NCBI GenBank assembly: GCA_021813745.1
Contig: JAKAJO010000040.1
Location: 1 to 64,000, forward strand
From: Acidobacteriota bacterium
Lineage (GTDB): Bacteria > Acidobacteriota > Terriglobia > Terriglobales > Acidobacteriaceae
Length of the DNA stretch: 64,000 nucleotides
Direction: 5' to 3'
Positions 684 through 7,341 of this stretch are shown piece after piece. Position numbers and translations under genes: made by a program. Each line of letters begins with the position of its first letter. Position 1 is the first letter of the stretch. The notes below the pieces were generated by a model that was given only the letters and a program-made list of their open reading frames with translations, was not told the DNA's origin and searched no databases.

Positions 684-2774
684 ATGCTGATACAGGAAGA
701 ACTGACGGCCGCCTTTCATCCAGGGATGCAGGCCTGTGCGTCGACGGTGGCGCAATATTTGTGGCTGATTCCGGCGATGCCGATGGTGGCATCGGGCATC
801 ATTGCGTTGCTGAAGCAACCGCGGCGGAAGCCGGCTGCGGCGCTGGCGATTGGTTCGCTGGGATTGTCTCTGCTGGTGGCGCTGGCGGCGTTTGCCCATG
901 TGGTTTCAGATTGGACGCAGCACATTGCCGTGCGCGAGACGGTGAACTTCACCTGGATGCAGGTGGGTGCTTCGCACGTGGAACTGGGGTGGGTGCTGGA
1001 CCCGCTTTCGGCTGTGATGATGGTGATGGTCTGCTTTGTGGGCCTGCTGATCTTCATCTACTCGGTCGGCTACATGGCGCACGACGAAAACTTCACGCGC
1101 TTCTTCTGCTTCCTGGCGCTGTTTGCGGGGGCGATGCTTGGAGTGGTGATCGCCAACTCGATCCTGCTGCTCTTCATGTGCTGGGAGTTGGTGGGCCTGA
1201 CGTCGTATCTGCTGATCGGGTTCTGGTATCACAAGCCGTCTGCAGCGGCAGCGGCGAAGAAGGCATTCGTGACGACGCGTGTTGGCGATATCTTCTTCCT
1301 GCTGGGCATGGTCTGGCTTTTTGCGCAGACGGGAACATTGCTGTTCTATAACAGCGGGACCGGTTCGCTGGAGCCATTGGCGCTGGGAGGGATGCTGGCG
1401 ACGCCTTCGGCTCTGGGCTTAACGGCGGCCAGCGCGATTGCGCTGCTGATTTTTGCCGGAGCGGTCGGAAAGAGCGGCCAGCTCCCGTTGCATGTATGGC
1501 TGCCGGATGCGATGGAAGGCCCGACACCGGTGTCAGCATTGATTCACGCGGCAACGATGGTGGCGGCTGGCGTGTATCTGGTGGCGCGCGTGTACCCGCT
1601 GATGTCCGCTGGGCTAGCGCCGGGCGGCACCACGTTGGCATTGAGCGTGGTGACGTGGGTTGGTGCGGCGACGGCGCTGTTTGCGGCGCTGATTGCAGTG
1701 GCGCAGAACGATATCAAGCGAATCCTGGCGTACTCGACTGTTTCGCAGCTCGGGTACATGATGGCCGGTCTCGGGCTGGGTGGCGTTGCAGTCGGCATGT
1801 TCCATCTGATTACGCATGCGTTCTTCAAGGCGCTGCTCTTCATGGGCGCAGGCTCGGTGATTCACGGCTGCCACGAGGAGCAGGATGTGCGGAAGATGGG
1901 CGGTTTGCGGAAGGAGATGAAGCTGACCTTTCTGACGTATGCCGCGGGCATGCTGGCGCTGTGCGGGGTGCCAATCTTCTTTTCCGGATTCTGGAGCAAG
2001 GACGCCATTCTGGAGGCGGCGCACGGGTGGCCTTTCTCGCAGGTTCCGTACGCCATGCTTGTGTTTGGAGCCGTACTGACGGCGTTCTACATGACGCGTC
2101 AGGTGAGCTACGTGTTCTTTGGGGAATGGCGTGGGCATGGACATGCGCACGAGAGTCCTGCGGTGATGACGGTGCCGCTGGCGATTCTGGCGTTCTTTGC
2201 GATGGCTCTGGGATTGATTGGGACGCCAGCGTGGCCGTGGTTCCGGGCATTTCTCGATAGTCGCGTGGCGGAACTGGACATGCATGCGTTTGCCGAGCCT
2301 GCATGGTTGATGTTGCTGGGGACGTCCACGGTGATTGTGGTGGTGGGCATTGGGGCAGGCTGGCTTCTTTATGGGAACAAGTCGCCTGCAGCCGAGGAGC
2401 CGGATGCGCTGGAACGTGCGCTGCCGCCGGTGTGGGTTGCGCTGCGGGATCGCCTCTATGCGGATGAGCTCTACGGCGTGACGGTGATTGCTTTTTACGA
2501 TTGGTGGGCCAGGGTGGCTGACTGGCTGGACCGCTTTGTGTGGGGTGGTGTGGTGGCGGCAGTGGCATGGCTGTTCCGCGGCTGGGCGCAAGTGAACCGG
2601 CTCATCGACGTGCATGGGGTGAATGGCGGCTTTGACAAGGGCTGCGATGAACTGGCGGCCGGCGGCGGATTGATTTCGCGCGTGCAGTCGGGGCGAGTGC
2701 AGAGTTATCTGCGACTACTGGCGGTGGCGGTGGTGCTGCTGGCGGCGATTCTTTTCTGGAGCAGCCGAGGATGA
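684..2774 (+). CDS. nuoL: NADH-quinone oxidoreductase subunit L (long form)
   Basis: Distal antiporter-like subunit of complex I with the long lateral helix that braces the membrane arm. The 696 residues carry the family signatures: the TM5 glutamate in FMCWELVGLTSYLLIG, the TM7 lysine in [19 protein letters not shown] and a lysine in GFWSKDAIL. Compared with the other NuoL in this window (642 residues), the segment from YADELY (about residue 592) to QSGRVQSY (about 675) is 24 residues longer. The extra lies in the lateral-helix region before the conserved HGVNGGFD stretch. That fits a membrane arm lengthened by a second NuoM, encoded two genes downstream. Stop and nuoM start overlap (ATGA). 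Confidence 0.96.
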   Translation: MLIQEELTAAFHPGMQACASTVAQYLWLIPAMPMVASGIIALLKQPRRKPAAALAIGSLGLSLLVALAAFAHVVSDWTQHIAVRETVNFTWMQVGASHVELGWVLDPLSAVMMVMVCFVGLLIFIYSVGYMAHDENFTRFFCFLALFAGAMLGVVIANSILLLFMCWELVGLTSYLLIGFWYHKPSAAAAAKKAFVTTRVGDIFFLLGMVWLFAQTGTLLFYNSGTGSLEPLALGGMLATPSALGLTAASAIALLIFAGAVGKSGQLPLHVWLPDAMEGPTPVSALIHAATMVAAGVYLVARVYPLMSAGLAPGGTTLALSVVTWVGAATALFAALIAVAQNDIKRILAYSTVSQLGYMMAGLGLGGVAVGMFHLITHAFFKALLFMGAGSVIHGCHEEQDVRKMGGLRKEMKLTFLTYAAGMLALCGVPIFFSGFWSKDAILEAAHGWPFSQVPYAMLVFGAVLTAFYMTRQVSYVFFGEWRGHGHAHESPAVMTVPLAILAFFAMALGLIGTPAWPWFRAFLDSRVAELDMHAFAEPAWLMLLGTSTVIVVVGIGAGWLLYGNKSPAAEEPDALERALPPVWVALRDRLYADELYGVTVIAFYDWWARVADWLDRFVWGGVVAAVAWLFRGWAQVNRLIDVHGVNGGFDKGCDELAAGGGLISRVQSGRVQSYLRLLAVAVVLLAAILFWSSRG

Positions 2775-5797: not shown

Positions 5798-7341
5798 ACT
5801 ACGCTGAGCTCTTCCGCGTGATGCTGCCGGAGACGGCGCTGGAGATTGCGGCGCTGGTGGTGCTGGTGGTGGATCTTGGATTCCTGCGCAAGGCTGCGCT
5901 CAACGTGCGCGCGGGTGCCGCAGCACTGCTAGGCGTGGTGGGATGTGCGGCGGCGCTGTGGGTGATGCCGCTGCAGCCCCTGGGCGGGTACATCTACCCA
6001 AGCACCGGCGAGGCGCTGCTGGCGACGGGCGGCACGGCCGCAGCAGCGCAAATAGGGATTCTGGCGCTGACTGCGCTGACTTTGCTGCTGCTGGTGGATA
6101 CGGAGTTCACGCAACATGTGGGCGAGTATGTCGCCGTGATTCTGATGGCGGCGGCGGGCGGGCTGATTATCGCGGCGGCACAAGACCTGCTGGTGATCTT
6201 CATCGGGCTGGAGCTGCTGAGCCTGGGGCTGTACATTCTGACGGCGTTTGCGAAGCGGTCAGGGGCGAGTGCGGAGTCGGCGCTGAAGTACTACCTGTTT
6301 GGCGGGATGTCGGCGGCGTTTTTGCTGTTCGGGTTCAGCTATCTCTACGGGATTACGGGATCGACGGACCTGCACCGGATCATGCTGGGGCTGTATATGC
6401 CGAATGCAGCGGCGGCTTCACCTCTGCTGTACATGGCGCTGGTGATGATTGCGGCCGGGCTTGGCTTCAAAGTGGCGGCGGCGCCATTCCACCTGTGGGT
6501 CGCGGACACGTATGAAGGCGCGCCTGCGCCTGCGGCGGCGTTTATCGCGTCGGTGTCGAAGGTGGCGAGCTTTGCGCTGCTGATCTCAATTGGAGCGGCG
6601 GCGGTGCATGTGTTCGACGGGATGCATGGGAAGGTTGAGGTAATCACGGGGTTCCATCTGAATTCGCAACCCGTCTACCTGGGCTTCCGCAATGTGTGGT
6701 TGGAATTGCTGATGGTGTTGGCCGCTGTTTCGATGGTGGTGGGCAACCTAGCGGCGCTGGCGCAGATCAGCGTGCGGAGGCTGGTGGCGTACTCGGCGGT
6801 GGCCCATGCGGGCTACATTCTGCTGGGGCTGGCGTTCTTCTCGTACACGCCGCTGAGCGCTGCGGCAATTCTCTACTACGTGTTGACGTATGGGCTGACG
6901 ACAATCGGCGCATTCGGCGTGGTGGCGGTGGTGGAGCGGGCGACGGGCAGTGACAGGCTCGAAGCGTTTTCAGGGTTGCACCAACGAAGTCCGCTGCTGG
7001 CCGCGGTGCTGCTGGTGCTATTCCTTTCGCTGGCGGGGATTCCGCCGCTGGTGGGATTCTGGGCCAAGTTCAATCTGTTTGCCGCAGTGCTGAGCGTGAG
7101 CCGCTCTGGAGCAGCCGTGGGGCTGGTGGCGCTGGCCGTGGCGATGAGCGCGGTAAGCCTCTTCTACTACCTGCAGGTGATGAAGCGGGCGTATGTGCTG
7201 GCGCCGGCGGATGAAACCAAGATTGCGCTGCCGCCGGTGACGCTGGTGCTGCTGGCGTTCATCGCGCTCAGCGTGGTGGCGCTGGGATGCTTCCCGGATC
7301 TGCTGCGAAGCTGGATTGCGGCCTTCTACGGCGGGATGTAG
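5794..7341 (+). CDS. nuoN: NADH-quinone oxidoreductase subunit N
   Basis: Antiporter-like subunit nearest the NuoJ/K/A junction, 515 residues. The TM5 glutamate region reads FIGLELLSLGLYILTAF. The TM7 lysine lies in GFKVAAAPFHLWVADTYEGAP and the next lysine in VSKVASFALL. These are NuoN signatures and differ from those of NuoM. It is the last gene of the operon, followed by a hairpin at 7388-7420 and then by the convergent sdhB. A second NuoN is at 46849-48348. Confidence 0.95.
   Translation: MNYAELFRVMLPETALEIAALVVLVVDLGFLRKAALNVRAGAAALLGVVGCAAALWVMPLQPLGGYIYPSTGEALLATGGTAAAAQIGILALTALTLLLLVDTEFTQHVGEYVAVILMAAAGGLIIAAAQDLLVIFIGLELLSLGLYILTAFAKRSGASAESALKYYLFGGMSAAFLLFGFSYLYGITGSTDLHRIMLGLYMPNAAAASPLLYMALVMIAAGLGFKVAAAPFHLWVADTYEGAPAPAAAFIASVSKVASFALLISIGAAAVHVFDGMHGKVEVITGFHLNSQPVYLGFRNVWLELLMVLAAVSMVVGNLAALAQISVRRLVAYSAVAHAGYILLGLAFFSYTPLSAAAILYYVLTYGLTTIGAFGVVAVVERATGSDRLEAFSGLHQRSPLLAAVLLVLFLSLAGIPPLVGFWAKFNLFAAVLSVSRSGAAVGLVALAVAMSAVSLFYYLQVMKRAYVLAPADETKIALPPVTLVLLAFIALSVVALGCFPDLLRSWIAAFYGGM

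Follow-up and report, generated by a model that had tools for sequence, protein, structure and literature searches.

A 64,000-nt stretch of DNA from a bacterium of the family Acidobacteriaceae (GenBank assembly GCA_021813745.1, contig JAKAJO010000040.1, positions 1 to 64,000; hereafter, the window) opens with genes for an enlarged complex I of the 2M type, in which two NuoM subunits of different lineages follow NuoL and whose operon lacks nuoE, nuoF and nuoG. We put the probability that a 2M-type complex I without these three subunits explains the locus at about 0.75; the 2M architecture as such is very likely. As far as sequence can tell, the twelve genes A-B-C-D-I-H-J-K-L-M1-M2-N are shown to encode a quinone module and an arm with four antiporter-like subunits (NuoL, NuoM1, NuoM2 and NuoN). 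According to the accessible text of papers citing its original description (Chadwick et al. 2018; PMC9040806, PMC6606698, PMC7117926), 2M complex I has a second NuoM and an insertion of about 26 residues in the lateral helix of NuoL, as does the window operon. Complex I with two NuoM subunits is already a known kind, including in Acidobacterium capsulatum, and the core finding is not new.

Organization of the operon

The window contains the operon from nuoJ onwards, on the forward strand: the 3′ part of nuoJ (3..356; NuoJ models, best 1.2e-22), nuoK (356..679; NuoK models, best 1.9e-35), nuoL (684..2774, 696 aa; NF005141, 1.7e-189), nuoM1 (2771..4288, 505 aa; TIGR01972 NDH_I_M, 5.7e-130), nuoM2 (4289..5797, 502 aa; TIGR01972, 7.9e-129) and nuoN (5794..7341, 515 aa; TIGR01770, 4.6e-98, with 329.2 bits slightly below the cut-off of 332.6). 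All neighbours from nuoJ to nuoN abut or overlap, and the best NCBIfam models of the last four genes are L, M, M and N, with both M genes above the TIGR01972 cut-off, which bears out the tight L-M-M2-N order read from this DNA in the initial annotation.

The genome assembly comprises 4.6 Mb in 136 contigs and is 92.3% complete; the window belongs to the contig that we call C53. Its first 74 bases match the end of contig C4 in reverse complement, and the 5′ part of nuoJ lies on C4 over this 74-base overlap. Across the join, the operon reads A-B-C-D-(PF05635 ORF)-I-H-J-K-L-M1-M2-N, with nuoA assigned from its sequence and its kinship to relatives. In four relatives of the same family, A-B-C-D-I-H-J-K-L-M1-M2 runs unbroken on one contig each, followed by nuoN in three; the fourth stretch stops before nuoN. 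No nuoE, nuoF or nuoG was found in the 19–20 kb taken from each of these four.

The window also holds a second, ordinary complex I operon on the reverse strand (46849..60339), with the order A-C-D-E-F-G-H-J-K-L-M-N, assigned by profile matches and used here as comparator. As had been supposed, the genome carries the enlarged complex I alongside an ordinary one.

Several other features adjoin the 2M operon. Between nuoD and nuoI on contig C4, on the minus strand (L022:2174-2551), lies an ORF of the PF05635 family (23S rRNA intervening-sequence protein family, four-helix bundle; 3.8e-21 for a piece of the ORF), which has no match in the four family relatives. On the upstream side of nuoA are long frames and then an MFS transporter. 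Convergent to the operon, at 7460-10837 on the minus strand of the window, are succinate dehydrogenase/fumarate reductase genes for iron-sulfur, flavoprotein and cytochrome b subunits.

Two kinds of NuoM

The two NuoM proteins differ at the site of E. coli NuoM Lys234 in transmembrane helix 7 (TM7). NuoM1 has a lysine there (Lys226) and NuoM2 a leucine (Leu217, codon at 4937..4939, forward strand), which a lysine faces in PDB alignments of NuoM2 with Paracoccus and E. coli NuoM. NuoM2 retains the TM5 and TM12 glutamates (Glu136 and Glu403), the TM8 lysine (Lys248) and the TM11-region histidine (His315), and carries a lysine six residues past Glu136 (Lys142, codon at 4712..4714, forward strand). 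Across 125 NuoM rows, four references included, the Lys234 site is Lys in 64, Leu in 60 and Thr in 1; the TM5 and TM12 glutamates are identical in all 125, and the TM8 lysine is absent from 2 leucine-type rows.

This residue divides NuoM into lineages. We built a tree of 117 NuoM rows (8 near-duplicates dropped) with 7 hydrogenase-like, 3 NuoN and 3 NuoL rows, using a quick method with SH-aLRT values only and with a long-branch warning that includes the window's other NuoM with that of E. coli. Each kind is set off from the rest by a branch (86 for the lysine type, 99 for the leucine type, starred), and the lysine/leucine label changes once on the tree. The window's NuoM1 and NuoM2 adjoin the NuoM1 and NuoM2 of the same relatives (L031 and L032). 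We reject tandem duplication as the origin of NuoM2, since it and NuoM1 lie in separate deep clades of NuoM.

The second nuoM gene between nuoL and nuoN thus encodes a true NuoM by its place inside NuoM in the tree, not the hydrogenase or Mrp subunit that the initial annotation had named as the risk to its 2M assignment; together with the helix extension described below, the two true NuoM subunits support that assignment. A hydrogenase origin is rejected because the genome's seven hydrogenase-like subunits, along with NuoL and NuoN, stand apart in the tree. An Mrp origin, for which the tree held no rows, is unlikely from profile scores (best Mrp-type model 7.8e-49 vs 7.9e-129 for NuoM). In fold comparison, the nearest structures to the NuoM2 model are NuoM chains (Z 55.0 and 1.5 Å over 485 for 8e9g_M; Z 53.3 and 1.7 Å over 483 for 3rko_C of E. 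coli), with Mrp D chains next (Z ≤ 48.3).

Configurations among relatives

Relatives were collected by scanning genome contigs with the 2M NuoL and keeping the best 80 of 592 loci, so the counts of configurations are not frequencies. In 65 of the 80, nuoL is followed without gaps by one or two nuoM genes and nuoN. The 15 uncounted loci reach a contig end (10), have a gap in frame calling (L063 and L070) or have no nuoN in reach (L048, L057 and L060, the last of which, on a 4.9 Mb chromosome, has one lysine-type M and no N). Of the 65, 44 have a lysine-type then a leucine-type NuoM with a long NuoL helix, 10 have one lysine-type NuoM with a long helix, and 11 have one leucine-type NuoM with a short helix; E. 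coli and the window's ordinary complex have one lysine-type NuoM and a short helix. The lysine-then-leucine order holds in all 44 complete two-NuoM loci and in 48 of 48 in a looser count. Genes for NuoE, NuoF or NuoG occur in the fetched flanks of none of the 44 two-NuoM loci, none of the 10 lysine-only long-helix loci and 5 of the 11 leucine-only loci.

The lysine six residues past the TM5 glutamate is present in NuoM2 of 39/48 two-NuoM loci and in 0/11 loci with a sole leucine-type NuoM, and on this ground we reject it as a general replacement for the TM7 lysine. The charged residues checked in NuoL, NuoN and NuoK are kept in the window and in nearly all of the 44 two-NuoM loci, as are the four cysteines of NuoB in the window and in nearly all of the 24 two-NuoM loci examined for them.

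Two loci depart from these patterns. L062, counted among the 11 leucine-only loci and belonging to Verrucomicrobiales bin G013, joins 2M-like nuoA-L to the end of a short-helix NuoL, M and N. It is probably an assembly chimera, or a recombinant, a suspicion that arises because the same bin has M2-N on another contig (C68 of G013, L126). In L066 (Opitutales), one of the looser 48, the 2M operon is preceded by an additional, partial nuoL together with a leucine-type nuoM and a nuoN (L066:1-3500).

The NuoL lateral helix

The NuoL of the 2M operon is longer than its ordinary counterpart within the lateral helix. The initial annotation had given 84 and 60 residues between the motifs YADELY and QSGRVQSY and their counterparts in the window's other NuoL; the distances are 70 and 46, each of the earlier figures being 14 too high, and the difference of 24 residues stands. 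Measured from column to column in a MAFFT alignment, the spacer is 76 in the 2M NuoL, 52 in the other NuoL and 47 in E. coli, so the 2M helix is 24 residues longer than the ordinary one and 29 longer than that of E. coli.

An AlphaFold2 model of this NuoL (52 aligned sequences, mean pLDDT 89.4, confidence low from residue 631 on) places the lateral helix at residues 590-667 (2451..2684, forward strand), as helices 590-644 and 650-667 with pLDDT blocks of 46-68 in 631-680. The extra stretch, the gap of the other NuoL in the MAFFT alignment, spans about residues 615-639, unsure by ±1 residue (2526..2600, forward strand), and thus sits inside the predicted helix, as the 2M assignment had presupposed. 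In fold comparison, the listed E. coli NuoL chains align to model residue 613-614 with an rmsd of about 2, and several other chains extend to 641-648 with an rmsd of 3.7-5.4.

A long helix is not specific to two-NuoM complexes. The spacer is 76-79 in all 44 complete two-NuoM loci and also in the 10 complete loci with one lysine-type NuoM. Every sampled two-NuoM complex has the long helix, the converse fails, and the helix is not diagnostic of a second NuoM. The 10 loci are titled Armatimonadetes, Zixibacteria, Coatesbacteria, Bacillota, Omnitrophica, Bacteroidetes, Anaerolineae (three) and one unplaced genome (HR32). No leucine-type NuoM was found in these genomes, whose completeness is not stated, in an M2 search at E 1e-30; seven carry one more NuoM gene, of lysine type, and three carry none, one of these (G006) having a weak match that by its own best match is not NuoM. 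A bolder reading is that long-helix complexes encoded with a single lysine-type NuoM could contain that protein twice. A similar case of a long helix without a second NuoM is noted for Ca. Manganitrophaceae in the part of PMC9040806 available to us.

In these ten loci, the helix looks like a 26-residue repeat from its sequence, with a mean score of 0.04 at lag 26 and of -0.54 to -1.27 at the other lags of 18-33. The repeat is not established in two-NuoM NuoL or in the window: across 45 two-NuoM sequences, window included, lag 26 is highest (-0.54) and barely stands out from nearby helical-period lags (-0.74 at 22, -0.69 at 30), and for NuoL of the window itself lag 27 scores above lag 26 (-0.24 vs -0.42). 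On a quick NuoL tree of 83 rows with the helix columns removed, helix length changes 3 times, one change being the suspect L062, and NuoM configuration 7 times. Lengthening the E. coli helix by 6-7 residues where it runs between NuoL and NuoM is described as causing a large loss of pumping efficiency (PMC3274701, in part), so such a change is not neutral in a three-subunit arm.

Candidate electron donors

The initial annotation had suggested looking upstream for nuoE, nuoF and nuoG to find the electron donor. There are none by the 2M operon: a whole-genome search for the nuoF and nuoG families, which did not extend to nuoE, gave no match near C4. The nuoF family has two matches in the genome, one in the ordinary operon and one on contig C87, and the nuoG family three, namely the ordinary operon, a HoxU on C15 and a formate dehydrogenase on C44. 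All of these belong elsewhere, and no set of E, F and G is left for the 2M operon in the assembly. We considered the second nuoE/nuoF pair, on C87, as partner of the 2M operon and rejected it, as its cluster continues across a contig break into a Hox-type hydrogenase.

Genes for a HoxEFU-type diaphorase and nickel hydrogenase subunits are split over C87 and C15 (L023 and L029). HoxU scores above its NCBIfam cut-off; the best models of the nickel hydrogenase subunits (Vhu) are below theirs, and the names HoxY and HoxH are therefore given by position. Near the Hox genes is a pyruvate:ferredoxin oxidoreductase (TIGR02176, 1366 bits vs a cut-off of 911).

The ordinary operon lacks nuoB and nuoI, and a motif scan of 46849-60339 found neither NuoB nor NuoI motifs. 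A lone nuoB-like gene lies on contig C26 (L120:4819-5541) and a nuoI-like gene on C72 (L121:4636-5208). With these lone copies, the sharing of one NuoB and one NuoI by both complexes need not be invoked. Three further clusters of antiporter-like subunits (L122, L123 and L124, on C29, C64 and C67), two of them with NuoH-like and NuoB-like genes (C29 and C64), look like group-4 hydrogenases or related complexes.

Proposed function and rival explanations

We propose that the longer NuoL helix would strap the fourth antiporter subunit into one arm. Because the operon has no NADH module, the donor must be other than NADH in this scheme: NuoI would accept electrons from a soluble carrier of low potential, most probably ferredoxin that the genome's pyruvate:ferredoxin oxidoreductase has reduced, and the electrons would pass on to menaquinone, over a larger redox drop that would support the longer pump chain. 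A ferredoxin-like donor is somewhat favoured. Ferredoxin has a potential of about -450 mV, NADH one of -320 mV and menaquinone one of about -75 mV, and Acidobacteria use menaquinone. With these values, the drop from ferredoxin to menaquinone, about 375 mV, would pay for almost five protons for each two electrons at 160 mV, which would fit an enzyme without E, F and G and with a longer pump chain. The transfer of five protons per two electrons is the weaker step, and the fifth proton is tentative, with odds just short of even. For an 11-subunit complex, the available text of PMC11238625 names pyruvate:ferredoxin oxidoreductase as major candidate donor, with ferredoxin as shuttle.

Several observations weigh against this scheme. 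The 2M operon crosses an inferred contig join, and among the 44 complete two-NuoM loci nuoA and nuoD are both visible upstream in 22, with fewer genes in the rest. With the genome 92.3% complete, a set of E, F and G may have gone unseen, and the donor module could instead be HoxEFU or the NuoEFG of the ordinary complex. The long helix accompanies a single lysine-type NuoM in 10 loci, and the incomplete TM5 Glu/TM7 Lys pair of NuoM2 speaks against its being a plain fifth pump.

The last point gives some force to a reading, less probable than the fifth proton, in which NuoM2 is a spacer or proton relay instead of an independent pump, so that the enzyme has four antiporter subunits and still moves four protons, NuoM2 lengthening the arm or tuning the coupling. 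The TM7 site is leucine throughout the leucine-type clade save one threonine (60 Leu and 1 Thr in 61 rows). As stated in the accessible text of a review, LysTM7 pairs with GluTM5 in every antiporter-like subunit, and the TM12, TM8 and TM7/TM5 sites are seemingly the minimum for its mechanism (PMC10212512); a further paper reports that E. coli NuoM cannot function without K234, K265 and E144, which are essential there, and that HycC of the E. coli formate hydrogenlyase, which has leucine at the TM7 site, tolerated the substitutions tested in it (PMC5061711; for the leucine also PMC9474812; both in part). Against a mere relay, NuoM2 keeps the TM5 and TM12 glutamates, the TM8 lysine and the TM11-region histidine, and a leucine-type NuoM is the only NuoM in the 11 sampled loci that have one alone, of which one is probably a chimera. 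Because the TM7 lysine is missing, the proton step in NuoM2 must differ from the textbook one; to judge from its residues, NuoM2 may pump by another route, or it may relay.

The other rivals concern the direction and source of electrons and the make-up of the arm. It is rather unlikely that the 2M complex oxidizes NADH through a borrowed module, either the ordinary NuoEFG or the HoxEFU diaphorase: both are encoded in the genome, and a paper on Synechocystis treats electron transfer from HoxEFU to NDH-1 (PMC9414918, in part), but E, F and G are unlinked to the operon here and in the 44 complete two-NuoM loci, and the drop of about 245 mV from NADH to menaquinone covers about three protons at 160 mV. 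Reverse operation, in which quinol electrons would pass to ferredoxin at the expense of the proton gradient, is improbable. It has been proposed for the 2M complex I of Nitrospira, but in that proposal it supports the fixation of carbon through the reductive TCA cycle (PMC6606698); also against it, the unusual complex I of A. capsulatum is expressed much like the ordinary one (PMC11636273). Least probable, at under one in ten, is that NuoM1 and NuoM2 alternate in two three-subunit arms and never share one complex. A long helix can occur where there is no second nuoM gene, which would allow this, yet one NuoM of each kind, in the same order and under a long helix, occurs in all 44 complete two-NuoM loci, a pattern that spans three phyla and one mislabelled bin.

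Comparison with known complexes

By description, a close likeness is found in A. capsulatum 161, an acidobacterium that has, besides its ordinary complex I, another with a duplicated nuoM, which is expressed in a pattern similar to that of the ordinary complex (PMC11636273). The accessible text of that paper has no residue or helix analysis, which is given here for the window genes. The 2M complex I of Nitrospira clade 3 resembles the window operon in its second NuoM and in lacking nuoE and nuoF; it is also described as lacking nuoH and having an enlarged nuoG, whereas the window operon has nuoH and no nuoG, and because of this difference in content it is not the nearest type (PMC6606698, in part). 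The 2M complex I of Chloroflexi shares the L-M-M-N order (PMC7117926, PMC3150298, both in part), and the sampled chloroflexotal loci pair the same two kinds of NuoM; there nuoBCDI are described as lying apart and nuoCD as fused (PMC7117926), whereas B, C, D and I lie inside the window operon with C and D unfused. The A-N complex I without E, F and G but with one NuoM matches the window operon in the absence of these genes and differs in NuoM number. HycC, with its TM7-site leucine and kept TM5 glutamate (PMC5061711, PMC9474812), is like NuoM2 in these residues; it is a hydrogenase subunit and the sole antiporter-like subunit of its complex.

No title or abstract opening in the literature searched, which did not include the defining 2018 paper, was on a leucine-type NuoM clade, and the pairing of two NuoM lineages and the missing TM7 lysine may be unreported.

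Distribution and origin

Of the 297 Acidobacteriota genomes sampled, 8 have an orthologue of NuoM2 (E 1e-125), counting that of the window, and each of the 8 belongs to the window's family. The list names 28 sampled members of this family; the 269 unlisted Acidobacteriota genomes, of unstated kinship, gave no match. An operon tree was built by a quick method (LG+G4, midpoint root) from L, M1, M2, N, H and D, concatenated in 45 rows. In it the window groups with the 12 acidobacterial rows (84), nested within starred groups (99-100) to which Verrucomicrobiota also belong, and 11 Chloroflexota rows stand apart (100). A row titled Klebsiella pneumoniae, placed among Verrucomicrobiota, is surely a mislabelled bin.

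The nesting among verrucomicrobial operons and the patchiness in the family suggest lateral transfer, and judging from these sequences the operon probably came to Acidobacteriaceae from a verrucomicrobial relative; the simple model and composition warnings for 22 of the 45 rows count against this placement.

Implications

The number of protons that an antiporter subunit of complex I moves is disputed, as are the residues that it needs. A natural four-subunit complex with one subunit lacking the TM7 lysine could separate the models of one proton per subunit, of exit through NuoL only and of a required lysine pair, and complexes with a leucine-type NuoM as the only one provide a control found in nature. 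In annotation, the long helix of NuoL is by itself no proof of a 2M complex.

Chances seem evenly balanced that 2M complex I, instead of being a duplicated pump, constantly pairs two NuoM lineages of ancient origin, with and without the TM7 lysine, under a helix grown by one 26-residue repeat. If so, either an antiporter subunit could work without the TM7 lysine, contrary to current models, or the fourth one would be a relay and the enzyme would move four protons, not five.

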